A program made the position numbers and the translations under genes. Of a stretch of DNA of 64,000 bases, positions 8,399-53,390 are shown piece by piece. Origin of the DNA: Calditrichota bacterium (GTDB lineage: Bacteria; Calditrichota; Calditrichia; RBG-13-44-9; J042); assembly GCA_013150955.1 (NCBI GenBank), contig JAADJD010000020.1:142066-206065 (forward strand), given 5' to 3'. The notes beneath the pieces are model-generated. The model saw only the letters and a program-made list of their open reading frames with translations, did not search any database and had not been told where the DNA came from. Each line of letters opens with the position of its first letter. The stretch's first letter is position 1.

Positions 8399-9319
8399 AT
8401 GATGAGATCACTGCTGAAAATAGCGGTTTTTGGCATTCAGGTGATGGCGCTGCTGCTGGTGATTACCGCAATCGAATTCACCGTGTTTGTAAGTTCCCCG
8501 GCGGCTCGACAGGAAATGGGCAAATACATTCTAAAATATTATCCCGAACTGGTGGATGGGGACGTGGTGATGGCCTCTCAGGAAGTGGATACCCGGCTTC
8601 CGCTAATGGCTTACTGGCGATTCTACTTCTTATGGATGACCAATATTTTGAAGGACTGGAATTGGGGGTACAGCCAGTTCAGTGGGGAGCCATTGAGCCA
8701 TTTGTGGGGTTATCCCCTGAGAACCACGCTATTGCTGGCCGTGATGGGGTTGTTGTTTTCTACAGGAATTGCGCTGTTTCTGGTGTTTCTTCAACGCAAC
8801 TGGGGAGAAAGCCGCCCGGTGCGATGGTTTCTCCAGGGAACGCGATTTGTTTCCAGTATCCATTACATCATCCTGGCATATTTTGTCTATTATGGATTGA
8901 ATTTAAAGAATCCTCCGTTGATCATCCCCGTGTTGATCATCGCGGTGGGGAATGGGGTGTTAACCGATACCCTGGATCTCATTTCGGAGGATTTAAAGAA
9001 CATCTTTTCGTCGCGTTATTATCAGGGAATTCGGGCGCGGGGTAGCAATGTGTATCGGCATCTGGCAAAACCCTTCACCATTTCCCTGGTGCGCATCATG
9101 AATGCCAAATTTCCCATGCTGCTCGGGGGAACCTTCATTGTGGAATACATCATGAACATTCGGGCAATGGGACTGGAAACCATTCAGGCGGTGTTACAGG
9201 ATGATCATTTAAAACTCCTGGTGATTACGTTCCTGGTTACCATTTTCATACTCAGCTCCAACTTTTTCAATCGATTGGTGCAACAAAAACTGGATCCCAG
9301 ACCGGTGATTGAGATATGA
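8399..9319 (+). CDS. ABC transporter permease, DppB/OppB-like
   Basis: Inner-membrane permease of the peptide/nickel importer family (BPD_transp_1). The start at 8399 (ATGATG after GCGAGAGAC) removes a spurious 47-residue N-terminal extension that overlaps the binding-protein gene. It has an N-terminal membrane segment, a periplasmic stretch and about five further membrane helices. The cytoplasmic EAA-type loop is recognisable near residues 215-235 (YYQGIRARGSNVYRHLAKPF), the site where the ATPases dock. At 306 residues it is of normal length. Its end overlaps the next permease by four bases (ATGA), indicating translational coupling. Confidence 0.88.
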   Translation: MMRSLLKIAVFGIQVMALLLVITAIEFTVFVSSPAARQEMGKYILKYYPELVDGDVVMASQEVDTRLPLMAYWRFYFLWMTNILKDWNWGYSQFSGEPLSHLWGYPLRTTLLLAVMGLLFSTGIALFLVFLQRNWGESRPVRWFLQGTRFVSSIHYIILAYFVYYGLNLKNPPLIIPVLIIAVGNGVLTDTLDLISEDLKNIFSSRYYQGIRARGSNVYRHLAKPFTISLVRIMNAKFPMLLGGTFIVEYIMNIRAMGLETIQAVLQDDHLKLLVITFLVTIFILSSNFFNRLVQQKLDPRPVIEI

Positions 9320-10176
9320 GAAAGTTGCGTCGATTAAAATACCTGCCCATTGGGGCGTTTCTAACCGTTTACTTTCTGCTGATTCTGTGGGGATGGCTGG
9401 ATATTTTCCCCCGGCAATGGCGCGAGGTACCTCCGCGTACCATCGTTTCCCAGTATTATCCTCCCAGTGTTGCCCATCCCCTGGGCATTTTCTTTCAAAA
9501 GGATTTGTTAATCTCCTTTGTAAAAAGTGCTCCTTCGTCATTTGTTGCCGGAACCATCACGCTGCTACCATTTCTGGTGTTCGGTATTTTGCTGGGGGTG
9601 GGGTCTTCCATGAAGCAGGGAAGCTTACAGCAACTCTGTCATCGTCTGATCGAAATCATGAATGCCTTTCCTAAACTGGTGGTGCTGCTAATTTATGCCG
9701 CCCTGTTTGGAGTAAACATCTATTCTTTACTGATCCTTTTCGGCATCATTAGCGCCCCCAAACTGGCAGAGCTCATCCGGGGAAAAATCCTGGAATTGAA
9801 ACGAGAAGATTTCATCGATGCCACCATTGCCCTGGGACTGCCCATCCGTACGATCGTGTTTAAACACATACTCTGGTACCATGGGCGTAACATAGTGGCG
9901 TCTCAAATCTTTTACATCTTCGCCATGGCCGTATTGATGGAAGCCAGCCTGTCCTATTTGAATCTGGGTATACGCTATGGCTATTACAGCTGGGGATTGA
10001 TGCTCCACTATGCAACCAGTGTGGGGCACCTGTCTTTTTTCCGCTGGCCCTGGCACCCGGATTTTAATCTACCGGCCGTGCTGCCCAGCGTGGGGTTAAT
10101 CGGTCTAACCTATTGTTTGATGTACATTTCTCGCCTGATCCAGGAAAGGGAAATGCAGATGAAGGGGATTTTATGA
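9316..10176 (+). CDS. ABC transporter permease, DppC/OppC-like
   Basis: Second inner-membrane permease, of the DppC/OppC type. It starts in an ATGA overlap with the upstream permease and ends in another ATGA overlap with the ATPase gene, so the genes are translationally coupled. Hydrophobic helices are visible near 13-32, 75-97, 115-140, 195-215 and 250-270. The EAA loop is RGKILELKREDFIDATIALGLP at about residue 155. At 286 residues it has the usual family length. It pairs with the upstream permease to form the channel. Confidence 0.88.
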   Translation: MRKLRRLKYLPIGAFLTVYFLLILWGWLDIFPRQWREVPPRTIVSQYYPPSVAHPLGIFFQKDLLISFVKSAPSSFVAGTITLLPFLVFGILLGVGSSMKQGSLQQLCHRLIEIMNAFPKLVVLLIYAALFGVNIYSLLILFGIISAPKLAELIRGKILELKREDFIDATIALGLPIRTIVFKHILWYHGRNIVASQIFYIFAMAVLMEASLSYLNLGIRYGYYSWGLMLHYATSVGHLSFFRWPWHPDFNLPAVLPSVGLIGLTYCLMYISRLIQEREMQMKGIL

Positions 10177-11348
10177 AACCATTGCTGGAAGTGGAAAATC
10201 TGACCGTGGCCATTCAGCGGCAAAACCAGTTGTTGTATCCCGCTTACCGGGTACAATTCGAGGTGGAGGTAGGGGAATTCGTGGGCATTGTAGGCGAATC
10301 CGGTTCGGGAAAAACGGTGACGATTTTATCCCTGTTAGGACTGGAGAATTTTTATCCCGGCGTGATAGGTGGGCAGGTGCGGTTTCGGTTCCGGGATGGC
10401 GAGGTGTCCATTCTGGATCGCCTGGACGACTTTGTGCGCTTCCAGAACGGAATGCCCCATAAGAACGTCATTGGCTGGCGACGTTCCATCCACCGAATAT
10501 CCCGCAATTTACTGGGACGCAAAGTAGCGATCATTTTACAGGACAGCCAGAAGACCCTGAATCCATTCTTAAAAATTCACCAGCACCTGCGGGAAATGAT
10601 TTTGCATAATGTGGAAACCGCCCGGCAACCGCAAAATCCACCGGGCAGACCTCTATCGCTCATGTCATTTGTCCGGCGGCAACAACCGGCATTCGACACT
10701 CCGGTAAGCCCGGTCGCCCTGGATGCGGTGCAGGAGGAGGCCATACGGTTGTTAAGAAGGGTGCAGTTCCGGGAACCGATGCGGGTGATGAATGCTTATC
10801 CCCATGAATTGAGCGGAGGTATGTGCCAGCGAATTTCCATTGCGCTGGCGCTGGCCACCCGACCGGAATTTCTGGTGCTGGACGAACCGACCACGGGTCT
10901 GGACGTCACTCTGCAGGCTTCCTTAACCGATTTGCTTTTCGAAATCCGTCAACGGGAAAGCATGAGCGGCATTGTGATTTCCCATGACCTGCCATTCATT
11001 TCGCGGATTACCGATCGCGTGGTGGTCATGTTTTCTGGAGAAATCTGGGAAATTGGCCCGGTAAAGGAAATCATGCATCCGGAATTTCCCTGGAAGCACC
11101 CCTATACCCGGTTTCTCCTGCAGAGTGCCACCTCACATCAGGGCGCCAGGAATGGCGTGTTTGTCCCCCGGCTGGAGCAGCGAAAGCGCAAGGGCTGCAT
11201 TTTGCGTGCGGAATGTCCCCTGTATCGGCAGGTGAAGAAAGCCGCATTTCGGAAGAAGTGCGACACCCGCTGGCCAGAGTTTTTTCAGGTGTACCCCAGG
11301 CATCACATCCGTTGTTGGGCGTTTGAAAATGAAGGGAGCGTGAAATGA
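10173..11348 (+). CDS. ABC transporter ATP-binding protein, DppD/OppD-like
   Basis: Cytoplasmic ATPase of the peptide importer. The start at 10173 (in an ATGA overlap) replaces the track's earlier one. It shows Walker A GESGSGKT at residues 41-48, a Q-loop in IILQDSQKTLNPF, signature LSGGMCQR at about 213, Walker B LVLDEPTTGLD at about 234, and a switch His in VISHDLP. The C-terminal oligo_HPY-type tail with conserved cysteines is present (GCILRAECP...KC...RCW). Unusual is a roughly 50-residue, proline-rich insertion between Q-loop and signature (about residues 145-195), making it longer than typical DppD. It forms a heterodimer with the next gene product. Confidence 0.9.
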   Translation: MKPLLEVENLTVAIQRQNQLLYPAYRVQFEVEVGEFVGIVGESGSGKTVTILSLLGLENFYPGVIGGQVRFRFRDGEVSILDRLDDFVRFQNGMPHKNVIGWRRSIHRISRNLLGRKVAIILQDSQKTLNPFLKIHQHLREMILHNVETARQPQNPPGRPLSLMSFVRRQQPAFDTPVSPVALDAVQEEAIRLLRRVQFREPMRVMNAYPHELSGGMCQRISIALALATRPEFLVLDEPTTGLDVTLQASLTDLLFEIRQRESMSGIVISHDLPFISRITDRVVVMFSGEIWEIGPVKEIMHPEFPWKHPYTRFLLQSATSHQGARNGVFVPRLEQRKRKGCILRAECPLYRQVKKAAFRKKCDTRWPEFFQVYPRHHIRCWAFENEGSVK

Positions 11349-12376
11349 TCGACATTCTGGAAGTTCGGGATTTACGGAAGGATTTCTATTTAAAAGAACG
11401 CGTGGGGTGGCGGAAACGGAAACGGGTGATTCCGGCCCTGCGCGGCGTGTCGTTTACCGTTCGCCGGGGCGAGATTCTGGGAATCGTTGGAGAAAGCGGC
11501 TGTGGAAAAACCACGCTGGGGAAGCTGTTGGTACGCCTGCTGGAACCCAGCAGCGGGGACATTCTGCTAAAAGGGCGCCGCGTCACCGCAATGCCGCAGA
11601 GTCAATTCCGAAAATATCGGCGCATCATCCAGATGGTCTTCCAGAATCCTTACGCCAGTTTGAATCCCGCCATGAACATTCAAAAGCATTTTGAAGAGGT
11701 GATTGCGTTAACCGGTAAGGTGCGCCCACAGCAATTCCAATCGCGAATTTACGCCCTGCTAAAACAGGTGCATTTGCAACCCTCCGTTCTGACGCAATAT
11801 CCTCATCAACTGAGCGGGGGAGAATGCCGACGGGTGGGGCTGGCCCGCATTCTGGCCCTGGAACCCGAAATCCTTATCCTGGATGAACCGGTGGCATCCC
11901 TGGACATCTCCATTAAGGGATCCATCATTGATTTGTTACTGGAGCTTCAAAAAAAGAAGAACCTGACCTACATCTGGATTTCCCACGACATCGAGGTGAT
12001 CCAGCGCGTTTCCCATCGCATTCTGGTCATGTTTGCCGGGGAAATTGTGGAAATCTTCACCCCCAATCACGAAAGCCAGGAACATTTCAACCACCCGTAT
12101 ACGCGGGTGCTGATGGAAGCAGCTGCAAAGGTGCAGCGGCACCTGGGCCTCTGGACGCCCAATCCCGAACGTTACGAACGATTGTTCGAATCCCAATTAC
12201 CGGCAGATGCGCCCAATCAATGCATTTATCAACCCTATTGCGATCGCTTCATTCATGCCGGTTCCCCCAGCGTGTGTTGTTCGGTAAAGCCACCGTTACG
12301 GCACGTGGCCGATCAGCATTATGTGGCCTGTCATTTTCCCTGGAATGAAAAAGCGAGAGTGCGCAGTTATGCGTAA
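11345..12376 (+). CDS. ABC transporter ATP-binding protein, DppF/OppF-like
   Basis: Second ATPase of the importer, starting in an ATGA overlap with the first. Walker A GESGCGKT is at 49-56, the Q-loop in MVFQNPYASLNP, signature LSGGECRR at about 156, Walker B LILDEPVASLD at about 177, and the switch His in WISHDIEV. The cysteine-containing oligo_HPY tail is present (CIYQPYCDR...ACHFPW). With the four upstream genes it completes a five-component importer with no missing part. The downstream TPR gene overlaps its end by 8 bp, so transcription and translation run on into the envelope genes. Confidence 0.92.
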   Translation: MIDILEVRDLRKDFYLKERVGWRKRKRVIPALRGVSFTVRRGEILGIVGESGCGKTTLGKLLVRLLEPSSGDILLKGRRVTAMPQSQFRKYRRIIQMVFQNPYASLNPAMNIQKHFEEVIALTGKVRPQQFQSRIYALLKQVHLQPSVLTQYPHQLSGGECRRVGLARILALEPEILILDEPVASLDISIKGSIIDLLLELQKKKNLTYIWISHDIEVIQRVSHRILVMFAGEIVEIFTPNHESQEHFNHPYTRVLMEAAAKVQRHLGLWTPNPERYERLFESQLPADAPNQCIYQPYCDRFIHAGSPSVCCSVKPPLRHVADQHYVACHFPWNEKARVRSYA

Positions 12377-40241: not shown

Positions 40242-41102
40242 ATGAACATGAAAACAAGAGTGGTTTGTTTCTTTATGGCGCTTCTGAGTGTGGGCCTGTT
40301 AGCGAGTGGTTTGAATGCGCAGGTTGTGAAGGCCAGTGTCTCCGTGCAGGCCAATACTTTACCTGCCGAAGAACAGACGCTACTTATGAGTTTGCCCGCT
40401 CAATTGGAAGATTACATTAACACTTACGAATGGGCAGACGTTAATGATGAAATCGAAATTGAATGCACGATCCATATTCTGGTCGAGACTTACACCACAC
40501 GGGGGGCTGACAAGCTGTATCTGGCGCAATTTCTCATCAGCTCGCCTTCCGGAGAAAACTTTCGGGATCAGGCCTGGCAATTCCTCTACCAGCCGGGCCA
40601 GGCTTTTGATCATCAGCGGTCCCAGTTTGATCCGCTATTAGATATGGTCGATTATTACATCAATCTGGTCATTGCCGGAGAACTGGACACCTACATTTTG
40701 TTGGGTGGCACTCCATTTTATAACAAAGCTTTAACCATTGCGAATCAGGGAACCATCAGTCTTTATGCCCGTGGCTGGACAGCGCGGTTAGAGCAGGTGA
40801 AAGAAATCACCGACGGAGACCATCTTCCCCTGCGCCAGGCAAAATACTACTATTATGAATGCCTGTATTATATTGAAGCCGAGCAGGATGAGGAGAAGGC
40901 ACGGGAACTGTCGCGCAAAGTGGTGGATTTGCTGGAGCAGGTGTACAATCGTGTGCCAAACAGCGTTGCCCTGAAGCGCTTTATGGATGCTCACTACCAG
41001 GAATTTTGTAGCCTGTTTGTTTATGACGAGAGCCGCTATAACGTGCGGCGCCTAATATCCATGGATCCGTCTCACCGGGAGACGTATGAGGAGTGTTTGT
41101 GA
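40242..41102 (+). CDS. PorD-like (DUF4835) exported protein
   Basis: Start at 40242 is preferred (signal peptide MNMKTRVVCFFMALLSVGLLASGLNAQ), though 40218 is possible; neither has a strong SD. The pattern fits DUF4835/PorD. An N-terminal beta region (ASVSVQANTLPAEEQTLLMSLPAQLEDYINTYEW) is followed by ECTIHILVETY. A mid-section FDPLLDMVDYYINLVIAGELDTYILLGGTPFYNKAL aligns with the family's asymmetric YYxxLxxGxDxDxFxxxGG block. PorD is associated with type IX secretion in Bacteroidota. The C-terminal helical part includes FMDAHYQEFCSLF. Isolated here from other por genes. Confidence 0.75.
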   Translation: MNMKTRVVCFFMALLSVGLLASGLNAQVVKASVSVQANTLPAEEQTLLMSLPAQLEDYINTYEWADVNDEIEIECTIHILVETYTTRGADKLYLAQFLISSPSGENFRDQAWQFLYQPGQAFDHQRSQFDPLLDMVDYYINLVIAGELDTYILLGGTPFYNKALTIANQGTISLYARGWTARLEQVKEITDGDHLPLRQAKYYYYECLYYIEAEQDEEKARELSRKVVDLLEQVYNRVPNSVALKRFMDAHYQEFCSLFVYDESRYNVRRLISMDPSHRETYEECL

Positions 41103-41151
41103 TCCCGGTAAAAAATTGTGCCAGGCGAACATAAATCAATGGACAAATTCA

Positions 41152-42417
41152 ATGATTCAAAGTGTTGAAATTTTGTATTTTAAGGGGTTTAAATACAAAA
41201 AGGTTGATTTAAAATCGTATAATGTCTTGGTTGGTCCGAATGCCAGTGGAAAAAGTACCTTTATCGATGTCTTAAAGTTAATAAAGGATGTGTTGAATGA
41301 TGGCCCAATAGGAGCGGTTGAAAAACGGAGCTCTAATTTTTTAGATTTAACATGGAACAAAGCAAAAACGTATTTTGAATTTGCATTAGAATTCAAACTA
41401 CCATCTACCTATAATCATCACTACCGATTTTCACGATATGAATTAGCGATTAATCAAGACACTGAATATGGTATTTGTATTAGCAATGAGCAGCTGTGGT
41501 TGATTAAAGATGAAAAATCACTAAAGAAGGGGTATGCGCTTTTCCAGAAAACGGCGGAGGATCAATTAGAACGTTTCCCGTATGAATTTGCCGCTCCGGA
41601 TCATCTGAGCATTGGACGAAGAAAATCCCCTGCAGGTTGGAGAAAAATTTTTTCAAAGAATGAAAAGGGAACCGATTATTTTCGCTCTGAGACCACCGAT
41701 TGGAATATCACTTACCGTTTTGGACCCCATAAAGCATCATTGGCCAGAATTCCCGAAGACGAAACTCGGTTTCCAATATCACTCTGGGTAAAGCAGGTTT
41801 TAATGGAAGGAATAGAGTATATTCATTTGAACAGTGAGGCCATGAGATGGCCTTGTCGTCCAGATGCACCAACAATGTTTAAACCCGATGGATCTAATTT
41901 GCCAAAAGTGTTGAAAAGTTTGAGGATGAAGGATGAAGAAAAATACAAAATGTGGGTTAATCATGTAAAAACAGCTTTATATGATATCAAAGATATTATT
42001 ATTCGAGAAAGGCCTGAAGATCGATTCTTGTATGTTTCTATACGATATCAAAATGGAATTGATATTCCCTCGTGGCTCCTTTCGGATGGAACATTACGAC
42101 TCCTGGCATTAACCTTAATTCCATATCTTCCTGTTAAAAACAAAGTGTTTTTAATTGAGGCGCCAGAAAATGGATTGCACCCCACTGCAATTGAGACCGT
42201 CATCCAATCCCTGTCATCAAGTTATGAAAATGTGATATTCGTTGCCACACATTCTCCGATTGTACTGCGTTTGGCCAGCCCGGAAGACATTTTATGTTTT
42301 TCAAAAACGGAATCAGGAACAATTGACGTCATTAGAGGAGATCAACACCCAAGGTTAAAGGATTGGAAAAAGGATATCGATTTAGCGACTTTGCATGCAG
42401 CCGGTGTACTTCAATGA
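41152..42417 (+). CDS. AAA/ABC-type ATPase of a probable two-gene defence module
   Basis: 421 residues of the AAA_21/SMC-like family. Walker A GPNASGKS is at 28-35, a signature-like LLSDGTLRLLALTLIPYL at about 308, Walker B KVFLIEAPENGLHP at about 332, and the switch FVATHSPIVLRLA at about 366. The start at 41152 drops a 22-residue upstream stretch that overlaps the PorD gene. Its stop overlaps the start of the partner gene by ATGA. Both genes are visibly AT-richer than their neighbours, which suggests recent acquisition. ATPases of this kind, paired with a nuclease or Toprim protein (as in OLD/PARIS), act in phage defence; that function is inferred here. Confidence 0.85.
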   Translation: MIQSVEILYFKGFKYKKVDLKSYNVLVGPNASGKSTFIDVLKLIKDVLNDGPIGAVEKRSSNFLDLTWNKAKTYFEFALEFKLPSTYNHHYRFSRYELAINQDTEYGICISNEQLWLIKDEKSLKKGYALFQKTAEDQLERFPYEFAAPDHLSIGRRKSPAGWRKIFSKNEKGTDYFRSETTDWNITYRFGPHKASLARIPEDETRFPISLWVKQVLMEGIEYIHLNSEAMRWPCRPDAPTMFKPDGSNLPKVLKSLRMKDEEKYKMWVNHVKTALYDIKDIIIRERPEDRFLYVSIRYQNGIDIPSWLLSDGTLRLLALTLIPYLPVKNKVFLIEAPENGLHPTAIETVIQSLSSSYENVIFVATHSPIVLRLASPEDILCFSKTESGTIDVIRGDQHPRLKDWKKDIDLATLHAAGVLQ

Positions 42418-43034
42418 AACGATTAATTGTTCTGGTACCCGATAAAAACACAGAGCACACTTTAAAAGGGCTATTATCCAGACACCAGTCCTTTAATATT
42501 GTTCCCCTGTCATATCGGAGAGATTATGATATTTTTGTTCATCCTGAACGAGATCCAGGTGTTGTTAGAACCTCAGTGAATTTTTTAAGAGCTTTTCAAA
42601 GGCAATACGAATATGCAATGGTGTTTTTTGATTTTGAGGGAAGCGGCCTGGAAGATCAATTCCTCGACGCAATTGAAAACAATTTAAAATCGGATTTGGA
42701 ACGGAGTGGGTGGAAGGATCGGGTCGAAGTTTTTGGTTTTTATCCGGAGTTGGAGATTTGGGCCTGGGTTCAATCGAATGAAATGGCCCGGATCATTGGT
42801 TGGGAAGATGTGGATAGGATTCGTTTGTTTTTAAAAGAAAATGGTTACTGGCAAGAGCCGAATAATAAGCCGCATCGTCCTAAAGAAGCATTTGAGCATT
42901 TATTATATGAAAAAAGAATTCAAAGATCCTCTACTATTTATGAGGAAATTGCACAAAGAGTTAGTTTCCGAAATTGTTCAGACCGTACGTTTTTAAAATT
43001 TAAGCAAACACTAAACCGATGGTTTTCTATCTAA
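42414..43034 (+). CDS. Toprim-like (DUF4276-like) partner of the AAA ATPase
   Basis: 206 residues, start in an ATGA overlap with the ATPase gene. The layout resembles DUF4276/Toprim-type proteins: strand LIVLVPDKNTEHTLKGLL with a conserved Glu, then AMVFFDFEGSG (Asp73, Glu75) as the acidic metal-site candidate, and FGFYPELEIWAW (Glu112/Glu114) like the family's ELExW motif. No other domain is visible. Its tight coupling to an SMC-type ATPase suggests a sensor-effector pair. The exact family is uncertain: I infer Toprim-like from motif order, not from an alignment. Confidence 0.6.
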   Translation: MKRLIVLVPDKNTEHTLKGLLSRHQSFNIVPLSYRRDYDIFVHPERDPGVVRTSVNFLRAFQRQYEYAMVFFDFEGSGLEDQFLDAIENNLKSDLERSGWKDRVEVFGFYPELEIWAWVQSNEMARIIGWEDVDRIRLFLKENGYWQEPNNKPHRPKEAFEHLLYEKRIQRSSTIYEEIAQRVSFRNCSDRTFLKFKQTLNRWFSI

Positions 43035-43038
43035 TTCA

Positions 43039-47918: not shown

Positions 47919-50900
47919 TTAGCGAATTAACATCATTTTCCGGGTTTTAATCCGATTACCAGCTTTTAATACCAGAAGGTAGATCCCACTTGCCTGGGGA
48001 ATGTTGTGATCGTTGTCCCCTTTCCAGAGCACGGTGTGGTATCCCCGGGAAAGTCGCTGGTTGGCAATCAAAGTCCGGACCTTCTGGCCTAAAAGATTGT
48101 AAACAATGACCGACACCTGTTCGTCCCCGGGCAGGGCAAATTTGATCACCGTTTCCGGATTAAACGGGTTGGGGAAGTTTTGATACAGGGTCAACTCGCG
48201 AGGCAGGATGTCTATCTCTCCAAAAACCTGCTCCACAAATTCACGGGTACCGACAATTAATTTAAAATCCCGGGCATTTTCCTGCTGCCGTAATTCAAAG
48301 GAATATTCGGGCTGTTTCTGCAAATTAATCGGGATGTGCGTGCCCTTATCCCAGAGCCAGATTTCAAACTCAGAAGGAATTTTTCCCAGGATTTCAAAAG
48401 TGAGTTGGATGGATCGGGATGGTGATTGGGTGGAAACGGTAAAATCCCATACGTCTCCGTTTTCCTTCACAGATCGCCAGTCCGTACTGAACGATCCGGG
48501 GATGTCCCAATCTGGATGAGAAAAGTACAGCGATATAAAATCCCCAATTGCCGGTGGTTCAAACCAATCCAGCGGGTCGTAACCGTCTGTGGCCACAGCC
48601 GCCATACCAGCATAATTGTCCCGATCCATCGCCGTCTCGTTGCCAGCCTGAATGCGAATAGCCCAGCCGTCCTGAATTTCAAAGGGGCTTGCCGGTTTCT
48701 GCAAACCGGCCTCGATGGGATAAAAAACCAGAGCCGCTTGATTGTCCAGCGCGTTTACAAAATAGCCTTCCCAGGGTTGTAACACTGTAGCCGCTTCGTA
48801 GCCACCGGATTGGGGATTATAACCCCACAGATCATTGGCGATATTGCCCACGCGTTTCACTGTAGACCAGTCCACCGGAAATGCAAAGGGATTACCGATT
48901 TGATTCCAGCCTTTTTGAAGCGATACAACAAACGAATCGGCAACGGGAGTGGAAATCCCGGAACCGGTATTGAATGAGGTCGCTGTTCGGGTGGCCAACC
49001 AGAAAGCCAGGCCTGGCTGGAAGGCCCCGATGGATTTGTCCTTGTCACTCAATTCCACATATTCTCCGTTGATCCAGCGGAAAAGGCGCCATTTGTATTC
49101 GTTGTATTCTCCCAGATTGTCCCCCAGAACCGCCAGTGGAGAAGGATCGTCCAGTTGAAGGGGAACGGAGACCATCTGATATCGCCCATCACTAATTAAA
49201 TTGCGATCCAGGTTTTGCATTTTTACGGGAAGATTGAACACGCCCTGTTCCGGGTAGCGGGTAACAAATTGGCCGTTAGAAATCTTGAAATAGTAGACCG
49301 CGCCGCGCTCTGAGGCCAACCATGCCGGCAGGGTTGCTCCGTATTGCTGTGGATTAATCGGCTGCAGATCGGTGGAGTCAAATTCGGTTTTGCCACCCAC
49401 ATGGTAAAAAATTCGGGCATATGCGATGGGCAAATCCGAGCGGAGTTGAATTTGAATTTCCATCTGACTACCGGGACTGGCCGAAATGGCTGTCGGATCG
49501 AACGTAACCTGTGGCGGTTCCGGTAATTTTCCGATTCCCTGCATCTGGATGGTGTAAAACCCGTTATTGGTTGCATCGGAATAGATGAAAATTTTCCCCG
49601 AATAAGTCTGAGCCTGTGTGGGATGAAATGTCACCCGCAACGTTTCCTGTTGCTGGGGTGCCATCGTTAAGGGAAGGATCCGGGAAAACTGGAAGGAAAA
49701 AGCCGGAGAGTTGCTTACGATACTGTCGATCGTAAATGAACTGTATTGATGACTATTGGCGATGGTCACCAGATAGGGCGGGGAGACGGAGTCCACCAAA
49801 ACGGTATCAAAATTGATGGTTTCAGCTGAGACCTGGATCGTTCCGCGAGAATAAATTCCCTCTCCGGAAAGCGACACCGTGATAAGCGATTGGTTGGGAT
49901 CATTACTTTTGATCTGCAACTCTCCCTGGTAGCTTGTCTCCTCTGTAGGCCTGAAAACGATCGGAATGGGGTAAACCTCCTGAGCCATCAAAAGAAATGG
50001 GAATATGCTGGTATCCAGAAAGGTTATATAGAATCGGTTTCCCTGGACGCTAATATTATCAATACGCACAGGATACATCGCATGGGTATTCGACAGCAAT
50101 ACGGTGATTGTATCCCGTTGCTGGAGATAAACCTGCCCAAAATTGACGGTTGTGGTGGAAATGCTGAGACTCCCCACATTAAAAATCCCTACTCCGGATA
50201 GATTGACCTGGGTTGGGCTGTTACTGGCGTTGCTGTAAATTGTTAGAATGCCGTAGTAATTTCGTGTGGTGTCTGGTTTAAAATAAACGTTCAGGGTAAT
50301 GGATGAACCGGGATCCAGACGGTAGGGGAAAGAAACGTCGCTTTCAAAATAGAATGCCGGTTCGTTAATGGTGATGCTGTCCAGTCTGAGATCGTACACC
50401 GAACTGTTGTTAATCAACGTGAGTTCCCAGGGTTCCGAGGTCAGCCCGATGTTTACTTCCCCAAAATTCTGTTCATTTTGCGAAAGCACCAGTTCCGCCG
50501 GGGATCGATCCACTCCCTGGCCTTTTAGCAGAACGGATACCGGATTTTCTTCTGTGTCCGGGTCATTCGAATAGATCTGCATGATGGTTTCATAACGATC
50601 CAGCGTTTCCGGAGTAAATTGAAATTCCAGCTGTGCGCTCTGTCCGGGAGCGATTTCAATGGGCAACGTCGGATTGATCAATCGAAAGGCGGTGTCCGGG
50701 ATGACGACCTGATGGATGATCAGATTCGCGTCCCCGGTGTTTTTTACCAGAAGGTTTTGTTTCACCGAATAGCCCACATAAACCCCACCGAAATCGATCT
50801 CGGTAACACCGGACAGGTCAATGTCTGCCGCCACGCCTTTTCCGGCAAGGGAAACATTATGCTGGGACTGATACACGTCATCGCTGTTGATAATCAGAGT

Positions 50901-53390
50901 TGCCGAAAAACTTCCCGTCTGATTGGGGCGAAAACGAACGGTAACTGTCTTTTGTGCACCAATGTCGATGGTAAAGGGAGTGGTTACTCCCTGCAAATAA
51001 AATGCGTTTTTTCCCGTGGTGATAATGTCCATGCCGTTGATCGTTAGCGCGGCATTACCGACGTTTGTCAGGGTGAGTTCCAGATCCGTTGAGTCTCCCA
51101 CGTAAGTATTCCCGAAATCCAGAGTATTGGTAGCAAGTTCTAACAATCCGCCGGTGCCATTACCATACAGATCGACTTGATAAACCGGTTGAGTTGGGTC
51201 GTTGGTTTGCATGGTTAATTTCACGGACAGATCACCTACCGAATCCGGCTGAAAGACCATCCGCAGGGTATCGTACTGGAATGTAGTTAATTCGAATTTG
51301 TCGGGTTGGGAAGCAAAGCTCCAGTGGGATGCATGAACACCTGTAATTTGGAAATTGGAAATGGTGAGCAACGAATTCCCGTCATTCCGGAATACAATTT
51401 CGAACGGTTGAGACTGTCCCACCGGTACACTCATGGTCGATAGCAGTGTCACTTTGTAAATTTCCGGCGCCTGTTTCATCCGGTATAAGCCCTGGTAGGT
51501 TTTATAATAAATCACCTCGGGATCGTATCGCGAAATATCTCCCCCAAGGGAACTGGTTAGTTGCAGGTTGCTTTTATCGTACATATTGTTCCAGGTTTTG
51601 CCGTGATCAAAACTTTTCATTTGACGGTAGCCGAATAAATAATGGTGCCGGCTATTGGTGGGATCAATAACCACTTCCCTCCAGTAACCGCTCTCGGAGA
51701 TTTTTGAGAATTGTGTTCCACCGTTGGTGCTCCGATAAACATAGCCGGAGTTGGTAATCACATACAACGTGTCGATGGTTTGGGGGTAAAAAGTGACTTT
51801 TTCCGGGATTTCCTGAAGATTTTCAAAAAATGTTCCACTTAAATTGACCCAGGAGATCCCGTCGTATCGGTAAAGCTCCCACATGGTGCAAACATAAAGG
51901 GATGTATTTAAGTAATTGTAGGTGGCCCCATACGCAAACGTGGGAAACCCATCTGGCACATTTAGGCGATGCCAGGTTTGTCCCCAGTCATCCGAGTAAA
52001 GGACAGGGGAACGATTCACCACCAGGGCTCGGCCGGTCAAATAAATCCGCTTATTGACCGAGTCGTAAACGATATCTTGATATTCATACAGGCTATCGGT
52101 GGCCTGGCGATTCTCCCAGCTGGATCCATTGTTTTCGCTGATGAAAAATCCTTTTTTTTCGGTGACCAATAGAATTTTTCCGGGTTCGTCTTCAGGCCAG
52201 ATCAGATCCTTCACTACCAAGTCGGTCAGGCCAATGTTTACTGGCCCCCAGGATTTGCCCCCATTTAAACTGCGATATACGCCGCCGTTGCGGGAGGCGG
52301 CAATTAAAATATCCGGATTCGTTGGAGATTCTACCACCCGCACAATGTTGGCGCCATATAGCCCTTGATTGTAGGGCAACCAGTTGTTACCTCCATCGAT
52401 GGTTTTGTAGACGCCATTTCCGTTGGTCAGGGCATAAAGGACCTGCGGATTTCGGGGATCGATGAGCACCTCCGTGATATCGGTATTCATCATGCCGTTG
52501 GTGGACAGGCGTTGCCAGGTGGCGCCGCGATCTTGCGACACATAAATGCCCCCATCCGATCCGCTTTTTCGAGCGGCAATATAGATGGTGTTGTTATCCG
52601 CCAGATACCGAATCGATTTGATGCCAATCGATGCCCCCAGGTCCACATATCGCTTTTCCCAGGTGTTCCCCTGGTCGTAGGAAATAATGATGGAGTTGGT
52701 ATACCAATCTTCATACAGAATGATCAGGCTATCATCATAAGGAGAAATGGAAATTTTGTAGAAAGTTTTATTGGTTACCTGCAGCAAATTGTTGGAAATA
52801 TCGGTCCAGGTTTGTCCACCGTCCGTGGATTTAAACAGGCTATCCGACGTGCTGAGAAATACCAGCAGGGGATTTTCCGGTGAAACGGAAATGTCGCGCA
52901 GGGTGACGTTTGGATCTTCAAAAATGATCTGCCAGGTATCTCCTTTATCATAGCTGGCAAAGGCCCGATCGTTGGTTGTGGCAATACTGTACATATAATG
53001 GGTGTTGGCAAAGCAGATGGACAATCGGCCATATGGTTGATTGTCTTTGTAGGGCTTATACTCCCAGGTAGTCCCAAAGTCCCCGCTAATCAGTAGATGG
53101 TTATAGTTGTTCACAAAAATGCTATCGCTGAATTGGGGATGGATATGGACCCCATAGATGAGCGAAAATCCATAATCAAACTTCGTCCAGCTCAATGCTG
53201 CGTCGGTAGAATAATATCCCGTTGAAGACGAGTTGAATATGATCAGGCTATCCGGAGCGGTTAATGCAATGTCTCCATAAAACAAACTGGATCCATATAA
53301 GGGGAGTCGTTCCCATGTATTGTAATTTTGTGTGTATCCGGTAACGATCAAAGCTAAGAGCATCAGGGTAGTGAAAAGGTACTTTTTCAT
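47919..53390 (-). CDS. Giant secreted propeller/ASH-repeat protein with type IX sorting domain
   Basis: 1823 residues. Signal MKKYLFTTLMLLALIVTGYTQ, SD GAGGAG 8 nt upstream. Residues about 25-635 are BNR/sortilin-type propeller repeats (SYDQGNTWEKR, STDGGQTWTDIS, SQDRGATWQRL). Residues about 640-1285 are six roughly 100-residue ASH/HYDIN-like (choice-of-anchor D) Ig repeats, marked by LDFGNTYVG, IDFGGVYVG, NFGEVNIG and NFGQVYL. A further beta-rich region follows, then a C-terminal sorting domain from about 1733 (LYQNFPNPFNPETVIKFALP ... LLGQKVRTL). It is the last gene of an operon with the CsgG/PEGA gene. Predicted to be exported and surface-attached. Adhesive role inferred. Confidence 0.9.
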   Translation of the reverse strand: MKKYLFTTLMLLALIVTGYTQNYNTWERLPLYGSSLFYGDIALTAPDSLIIFNSSSTGYYSTDAALSWTKFDYGFSLIYGVHIHPQFSDSIFVNNYNHLLISGDFGTTWEYKPYKDNQPYGRLSICFANTHYMYSIATTNDRAFASYDKGDTWQIIFEDPNVTLRDISVSPENPLLVFLSTSDSLFKSTDGGQTWTDISNNLLQVTNKTFYKISISPYDDSLIILYEDWYTNSIIISYDQGNTWEKRYVDLGASIGIKSIRYLADNNTIYIAARKSGSDGGIYVSQDRGATWQRLSTNGMMNTDITEVLIDPRNPQVLYALTNGNGVYKTIDGGNNWLPYNQGLYGANIVRVVESPTNPDILIAASRNGGVYRSLNGGKSWGPVNIGLTDLVVKDLIWPEDEPGKILLVTEKKGFFISENNGSSWENRQATDSLYEYQDIVYDSVNKRIYLTGRALVVNRSPVLYSDDWGQTWHRLNVPDGFPTFAYGATYNYLNTSLYVCTMWELYRYDGISWVNLSGTFFENLQEIPEKVTFYPQTIDTLYVITNSGYVYRSTNGGTQFSKISESGYWREVVIDPTNSRHHYLFGYRQMKSFDHGKTWNNMYDKSNLQLTSSLGGDISRYDPEVIYYKTYQGLYRMKQAPEIYKVTLLSTMSVPVGQSQPFEIVFRNDGNSLLTISNFQITGVHASHWSFASQPDKFELTTFQYDTLRMVFQPDSVGDLSVKLTMQTNDPTQPVYQVDLYGNGTGGLLELATNTLDFGNTYVGDSTDLELTLTNVGNAALTINGMDIITTGKNAFYLQGVTTPFTIDIGAQKTVTVRFRPNQTGSFSATLIINSDDVYQSQHNVSLAGKGVAADIDLSGVTEIDFGGVYVGYSVKQNLLVKNTGDANLIIHQVVIPDTAFRLINPTLPIEIAPGQSAQLEFQFTPETLDRYETIMQIYSNDPDTEENPVSVLLKGQGVDRSPAELVLSQNEQNFGEVNIGLTSEPWELTLINNSSVYDLRLDSITINEPAFYFESDVSFPYRLDPGSSITLNVYFKPDTTRNYYGILTIYSNASNSPTQVNLSGVGIFNVGSLSISTTTVNFGQVYLQQRDTITVLLSNTHAMYPVRIDNISVQGNRFYITFLDTSIFPFLLMAQEVYPIPIVFRPTEETSYQGELQIKSNDPNQSLITVSLSGEGIYSRGTIQVSAETINFDTVLVDSVSPPYLVTIANSHQYSSFTIDSIVSNSPAFSFQFSRILPLTMAPQQQETLRVTFHPTQAQTYSGKIFIYSDATNNGFYTIQMQGIGKLPEPPQVTFDPTAISASPGSQMEIQIQLRSDLPIAYARIFYHVGGKTEFDSTDLQPINPQQYGATLPAWLASERGAVYYFKISNGQFVTRYPEQGVFNLPVKMQNLDRNLISDGRYQMVSVPLQLDDPSPLAVLGDNLGEYNEYKWRLFRWINGEYVELSDKDKSIGAFQPGLAFWLATRTATSFNTGSGISTPVADSFVVSLQKGWNQIGNPFAFPVDWSTVKRVGNIANDLWGYNPQSGGYEAATVLQPWEGYFVNALDNQAALVFYPIEAGLQKPASPFEIQDGWAIRIQAGNETAMDRDNYAGMAAVATDGYDPLDWFEPPAIGDFISLYFSHPDWDIPGSFSTDWRSVKENGDVWDFTVSTQSPSRSIQLTFEILGKIPSEFEIWLWDKGTHIPINLQKQPEYSFELRQQENARDFKLIVGTREFVEQVFGEIDILPRELTLYQNFPNPFNPETVIKFALPGDEQVSVIVYNLLGQKVRTLIANQRLSRGYHTVLWKGDNDHNIPQASGIYLLVLKAGNRIKTRKMMLIR

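Follow-up and report, generated by a model that had tools for sequence, protein, structure and literature searches.

Two overlapping genes at positions 41,152–43,034 of the window, the 64,000-nucleotide stretch of a Calditrichota bacterium genome that we analyzed, probably constitute a portable anti-phage module, the defense function being putative here. We give a probability of roughly 0.65 to the reading that the two genes form a self-contained MAD3–MAD4 module that moves horizontally and in which a sensor ATPase of the OLD/PtuA class would control a Toprim-like effector, in the manner of PARIS.

The mad3-like gene (41152..42417, + strand) encodes a 421-aa ABC (AAA_21) ATPase, assigned to the OLD/PtuA class by NCBIfam NF047739, Pfam AAA_21, and fold matches. 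The mad4-like gene (42414..43034, + strand) encodes a 206-aa putative effector, predicted to be Toprim-like and related to DUF4276 from NCBIfam NF047734, an AlphaFold2 model, and hhalign profile alignment. The two open frames share an ATGA stop/start overlap at 42414..42417 (+ strand). At 37.9%, the GC content of the cassette is below that of the flanking genes (48.4% and 48.9%) and of the window as a whole (49.2%). The 1-kb GC values of the window reach their minimum at the gene pair, and the region from 38.5 to 45 kb is AT-richer in general. The upstream gene encodes a DUF4835 protein, and the downstream gene, on the other strand, encodes a YchF-type GTPase. The initial annotation, which had described two genes with an ATGA overlap forming an AT-rich island between housekeeping-like genes, was accurate in all three respects. 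A promoter and terminator scan of the locus returned nothing above chance. A protein of 1823 aa, encoded at 47919-53390 of the window, has repeated domains, and its C-terminal tail is sorting-like, recalling type IX secretion.

The ATPase scored 463.9 bits against the MAD3 model NF047739 (equivalog cut-off 420) and its partner 208 bits against the MAD4 model NF047734 (equivalog cut-off 160). With PADLOC, the HEC-01A and MAD3 profiles ranked high for the ATPase, and the match of the MAD4 profile to the partner was weak (4e-4). MAD3, an ATPase, and its partner MAD4 reportedly belong to the methylation-associated defense system (MADS), an eight-gene anti-phage system said to have been described by Maestri et al. 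in 2024 (doi 10.1016/j.chom.2024.07.005). The mechanism of phage restriction by MADS is listed as unknown (PMC12904381). The pair had been proposed initially as a candidate two-gene defense system. The defense part of this proposal agrees with the anti-phage names of the two NCBIfam models and with the occurrence of relatives in MADS, BREX, and DUF1156/DUF499 loci (see below), but the pair already is a named family. Full-text literature searches returned no paper on Mad3–Mad4 as a free module; the original MADS paper, which lay outside those searches, may discuss it.

The window pair is not a MADS system, because methyltransferase, specificity, and kinase genes, mad7, and mad8 are all missing beside it and because it belongs to a separate clade. 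Its likeness to MADS consists in two proteins above the MAD3 and MAD4 cut-offs, in the same gene order and with the same overlap. No mad7 match was found in the genome, whereas mad7 was matched in three MADS genomes serving as controls. A search for the methyltransferase gene mad2, run without a positive control, gave no match in the genome and none beside the pair. Looked for at the locus only, mad1, mad5, mad6, and mad8 do not adjoin it. Our reference for a full MADS operon is L004, on a Piscinibacter plasmid. In the MADS operon of L065 (10513-13711), two mad5-like (specificity) genes lie in tandem.

By scanning one genome per species in 84,980 species with two short motifs, a procedure that gives a lower bound, we identified at least 65 loci in many phyla. 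Nine of these 65 lie inside MADS operons. The other 56 have no MADS component in reach, and 33 of them are flanked by 3 kb or more on either side. MAD3 adjoins MAD4 in every relative where the contig reaches, which is more than a chance association. The exact −4 overlap is present in 36 of 65 pairs counted, a set to which other searches contributed two loci. In the MAD4 tree, which like the MAD3 tree is not rooted, the window falls in a 49-row clade without any MADS member (support 100/100), and the other side comprises the MADS rows and three non-MADS pairs. In the MAD3 tree, a branch with a support of 100 separates MADS from the rest. The two trees have 22 of 55 splits in common, including window+L007 and window+L007+L037; the pair was therefore inherited as a unit, its two genes travelling together. 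MAD4 relatives were found neither in phage records nor, using close-relative patterns, in viral contigs, and the one found in plasmids is within a full MADS. On a Geoalkalibacter plasmid (L005, 9001-10224), a MAD3-like ATPase gene, with no MAD4 gene found beside it, adjoins genes for an Eco57I-type methylase and a nuclease-related protein.

The surroundings of the relatives are diverse. The strands of adjacent genes are near random (26:23 upstream and 30:22 downstream), and no neighbor gene family recurs specially beside the non-MADS pairs, which fits an autonomous unit. Two pairs (L010 and L021) are embedded in BREX type 1 operons, in the order brxC, pglX, MAD3–MAD4, pglZ, and brxL on one strand. 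The nearest relative of the window pair (L007) is located between a gene for an SNF2-type helicase and genes for a DUF1156 protein and a DUF499 protein, in an anti-phage-like locus; these three matches are strong (E 1e-49 to 1e-117) yet below NCBI's own cut-offs. The pair of L024 adjoins a DNA methylase gene and that of L020 a gene for a ResIII protein. Several other pairs have plain housekeeping neighbors, such as argS, gltX, and yjeF. In a PADLOC tally, methyltransferase, PglX, and PglZ matches were commoner in first neighbors than further out; this is no clean enrichment test, since further genes of the same loci also include defense genes. The survey of neighbors for defense islands called for in the initial annotation thus gave a divided answer: some pairs lie in MADS, BREX type 1, or DUF1156/DUF499 loci, but most non-MADS pairs lie among unrelated genes, not beside recognizable defense genes. 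Homologs consistently located in metabolic operons, which that annotation had named as evidence against a defense role, are not what we found, as neighbors vary and orientation is near random. The genome of the window also encodes a PglZ-domain protein (L111, G000:C24:15878-16459, in a 528-aa frame), which, judging from its size, is probably a PorX-type regulator of type IX secretion rather than a BREX component.

The pair occupies a site that is empty in a relative. The DUF4835 and YchF genes adjoin each other in G001, a different species of the genus, their stop codons being 7 bp apart. The alignment to this genome skips from window position 41095 to 43037, and the flanking gene order is otherwise unchanged. 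The segment absent from the same place in G001 corresponds to approximately 41103..43037. The empty site is clean, and we found no MADS remnant there. The DUF4835–YchF adjacency is also present in two genomes of the same order (G005 and G004). The gene pair is therefore a seamless block of ~1.93 kb gained here or lost from G001, gain being the simpler account. Of 98 genomes searched, just one other yielded MAD4, which is absent from the nearest kin. There is no integrase gene and no tRNA gene near the pair. Repeats at the insertion site are short and chance-like, among them an imperfect direct repeat of 20 nt at the 3' end, and none makes a convincing target repeat. In L082, from another genome of the order (G007), the same DUF4835/YchF interval contains a different block (8660-11555) with a Ser/Thr-kinase-like gene and a gene encoding a 542-aa protein; from this block, the interval may be tolerant of insertions.

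The MAD3 protein has a strong Pfam AAA_21 match and also matches the AbiLi profile (5e-20); in the comparison with AriA of PARIS, the scores of the HEC-01A and MAD3 profiles are equally high or higher. The structure model of MAD3 (pLDDT 93.5) matches PtuA of Septu and of type I-A retrons best, and also OLD and the heads of SMC/Rad50 proteins, PtuA and OLD being the nearest. The Walker A motif GPNASGKS (residues 28-35, 41233..41256), the signature-like motif SDGT (residues 311-314, 42082..42093), and the His switch H367 (42250..42252), all on the + strand, are intact. The Walker B region reads VFLIEAPE (residues 332-339, 42145..42168, + strand), and the residue directly after the Walker B acid is alanine (Ala337, codon GCG at 42160..42162, + strand). 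This residue is a glutamate in the other 58 of the 59 aligned sequences and in six further copies. The Walker and signature motifs had been described as intact, which is correct for Walker A and the signature, but the catalytic glutamate expected of an active ABC/OLD-class ATPase is replaced. In ABC ATPases, this Walker B glutamate serves ATP hydrolysis, and its loss blocks hydrolysis while still allowing ATP binding. Ala337 should thus impair hydrolysis, and therefore the window copy of the module may be inactive or altered, either locked or without function. The window copy otherwise shows an ordinary number of departures, with two of 60 highly conserved MAD3 columns (A337 and Q361V) and none of 20 in MAD4 differing.

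The AlphaFold2 model of MAD4, built on 59 sequences, shows a confident alpha/beta fold (pLDDT 95), in the order strand 2-8, helix, strand 38-42, helix, strand 65-73, helix, strand 104-109, and helices. Twelve residues are invariant: D47, D73, P111, E112, L113, E114, W116, K152, K157, C188, W203, and F204. D10, just after the first strand (42441..42443, + strand), is an Asp in 57 of the 59 sequences. D73 ends strand 65-73 (42630..42632, + strand) and is aligned to the first D of the DxD motif of DUF4276. The segment PELEIW (residues 111-116, 42744..42761, + strand), with P, E, L, E, and W invariant, has the ExW register common to DUF4276, and KPHRPK (residues 152-157, 42867..42884, + strand) contains the two invariant lysines. 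The acidic motifs pointed out initially are present, DFEGSG at residues 73-78 and ELEIWAW at residues 112-118. DUF4276 is the family most often matched among the MAD4 relatives, weakly and in 11 of the 59 aligned proteins (best 1.3e-4); the window protein itself falls below the Pfam thresholds of DUF4276 (PF14103; no match) and of RloB. Profile comparison by hhalign of MAD4 with ten DUF4276-type proteins aligned 177 columns (95.2%, E 2.8e-8), with D73-x-E75 on the DxD motif of DUF4276 and E114-x-W116 on its conserved ExW motif. Conservation of E75 is not strict. Nor is the first glutamate of Toprim in register, as MAD4 has A/P-D, the D being D10, where DUF4276 has E-G. This profile relationship to DUF4276 supports the prediction that MAD4 is a Toprim-like enzyme with an altered first acidic motif.

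In structure searches with the MAD4 model, Foldseek returned no significant match in the PDB (best E 9.5e-3) and none in BFVD, where an RloB-like protein ranked fourth with a probability of 0.98, and sequence searches of the PDB gave chance matches only. The proposal of a Toprim-like partner is thus backed by profile similarity, motif register, and a compatible fold, but not by the structure searches. A structure prediction lacking a Toprim fold, named beforehand as evidence against the proposal, was not what we obtained: the alpha/beta model is compatible with Toprim. The matches listed at E up to 10 for MAD4 and its 58 relatives do not include DUF4435, the family of AriB, nor was DUF4435 found in the genome of the window, and the initial view that the partner is not AriB holds.

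Other readings of the pair must be weighed. It is highly improbable that it is the leftover of a full MADS operon whose other genes were lost in this lineage. Both genes do pass the MADS equivalog cut-offs, but they sit in a large clade without MADS member in both trees, the sister genome G001 shows no trace of MADS at its empty site, and the genome lacks matches to mad7, which was recovered in the control genomes, and to mad2. A cellular role, like the part in cell-cycle progression proposed for Cran1, an archaeal OLD-class ATPase (PMC12796447), would be in line with the plain housekeeping neighbors of several non-MADS pairs. This reading is quite improbable given a distribution that is patchy over many phyla, the absence from nearest kin, the lack of a fixed neighbor, and the repeated placement within BREX, DUF1156/DUF499, and MADS loci.

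A plain toxin–antitoxin addiction module, with MAD4 becoming toxic once MAD3 is lost, would also account for two overlapping, mobile genes, one of them encoding an AAA_21 ATPase. We regard it as unlikely, an ATPase partner being better suited to a sensor/effector pair; a guard system such as PARIS acts as both, so these readings overlap. Finally, the pair could be decaying or dead cargo, its ATPase knocked out by Ala337. The uniqueness of this residue and the established role of the glutamate in hydrolysis by ABC ATPases speak for it. It remains doubtful, with a real chance of being right, as both frames are open, Q361V is the only other departure in the conserved columns of the two proteins, and a single substitution may be an assembly or strain variant.

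The self-contained MAD3–MAD4 module that we favor has counterparts among known systems. PARIS (AriA–AriB) likewise consists of two genes, for an OLD-class ABC ATPase and a small Toprim-type partner, but the window partner is not a DUF4435 protein and the window ATPase is closer to the MAD3 and HEC-01A profiles. The proposed OLD/PARIS-type pairing logic is in keeping with the MAD3/MAD4 names, the loci of the relatives, and the MAD4–DUF4276 alignment. OLD-ABC ATPases paired with TOPRIM proteins are described as backup suicidal effectors in BREX loci (PMC12839542). In two BREX type 1 operons, relatives of the window pair separate pglX from pglZ, whereas there is no BREX next to the window copy; the main text of that study does not mention MADS, Mad3, Mad4, or DUF4276. 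Septu and retron I-A PtuA proteins are the best structural matches of MAD3, but the partner of PtuA is the HNH nuclease PtuB, whereas that of MAD3 is Toprim-like. AbiL, RloA–RloB, and AAA_21–DUF4276 pairs also combine an ATPase with an RloB/DUF4276-class partner, a class whose Pfam thresholds the window MAD4 does not reach. In the OLD nuclease and GajA, ATPase and Toprim are in one chain and not in two separate genes.

In PARIS, sensing of a phage product by an OLD-class ATPase leads to the activation of a Toprim nuclease, which cleaves tRNA (PMC12839542, PMC12409363), AriB being this tRNA nuclease (PMC12409363). By analogy, MAD3 would be the sensor and MAD4 the effector. MAD3 would oligomerize on ATP and keep MAD4 inactive until a phage trigger changes its ATP state, releasing or activating MAD4. 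This trigger might be the inhibition of a host DNA-modifying defense or a phage replication or recombination intermediate. MAD4 would be Toprim-like and depend on metal for its activity, relying on D10, D73, E112/E114, and its invariant lysines; once activated, it might cut nucleic acid, tRNA or DNA, and abort the infection. The same analogy suggests that a pair placed in methylation-based systems is a guard firing when those systems are inhibited; a free-standing pair such as that of the window, however, must sense something in their absence.

At the level of the family, we put at even odds that MAD3–MAD4 is an autonomous, widespread immune module broader than MADS, plugged separately into MADS, BREX, and DUF1156/DUF499 loci to serve there as a guard effector whose Toprim site has diverged, and that public "MAD3/MAD4" labels mostly designate the free module. 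If so, automatic annotation by the MAD3 and MAD4 models overcalls MADS. With its unique alanine at the Walker B glutamate, the window copy is a naturally occurring example of a pair that is probably disabled or locked. Should two of the eight MADS genes indeed form a free module able to enter BREX and related loci as well, this would point to a self-contained effector unit, and the question of how MADS restricts phage would become testable with two genes instead of eight.
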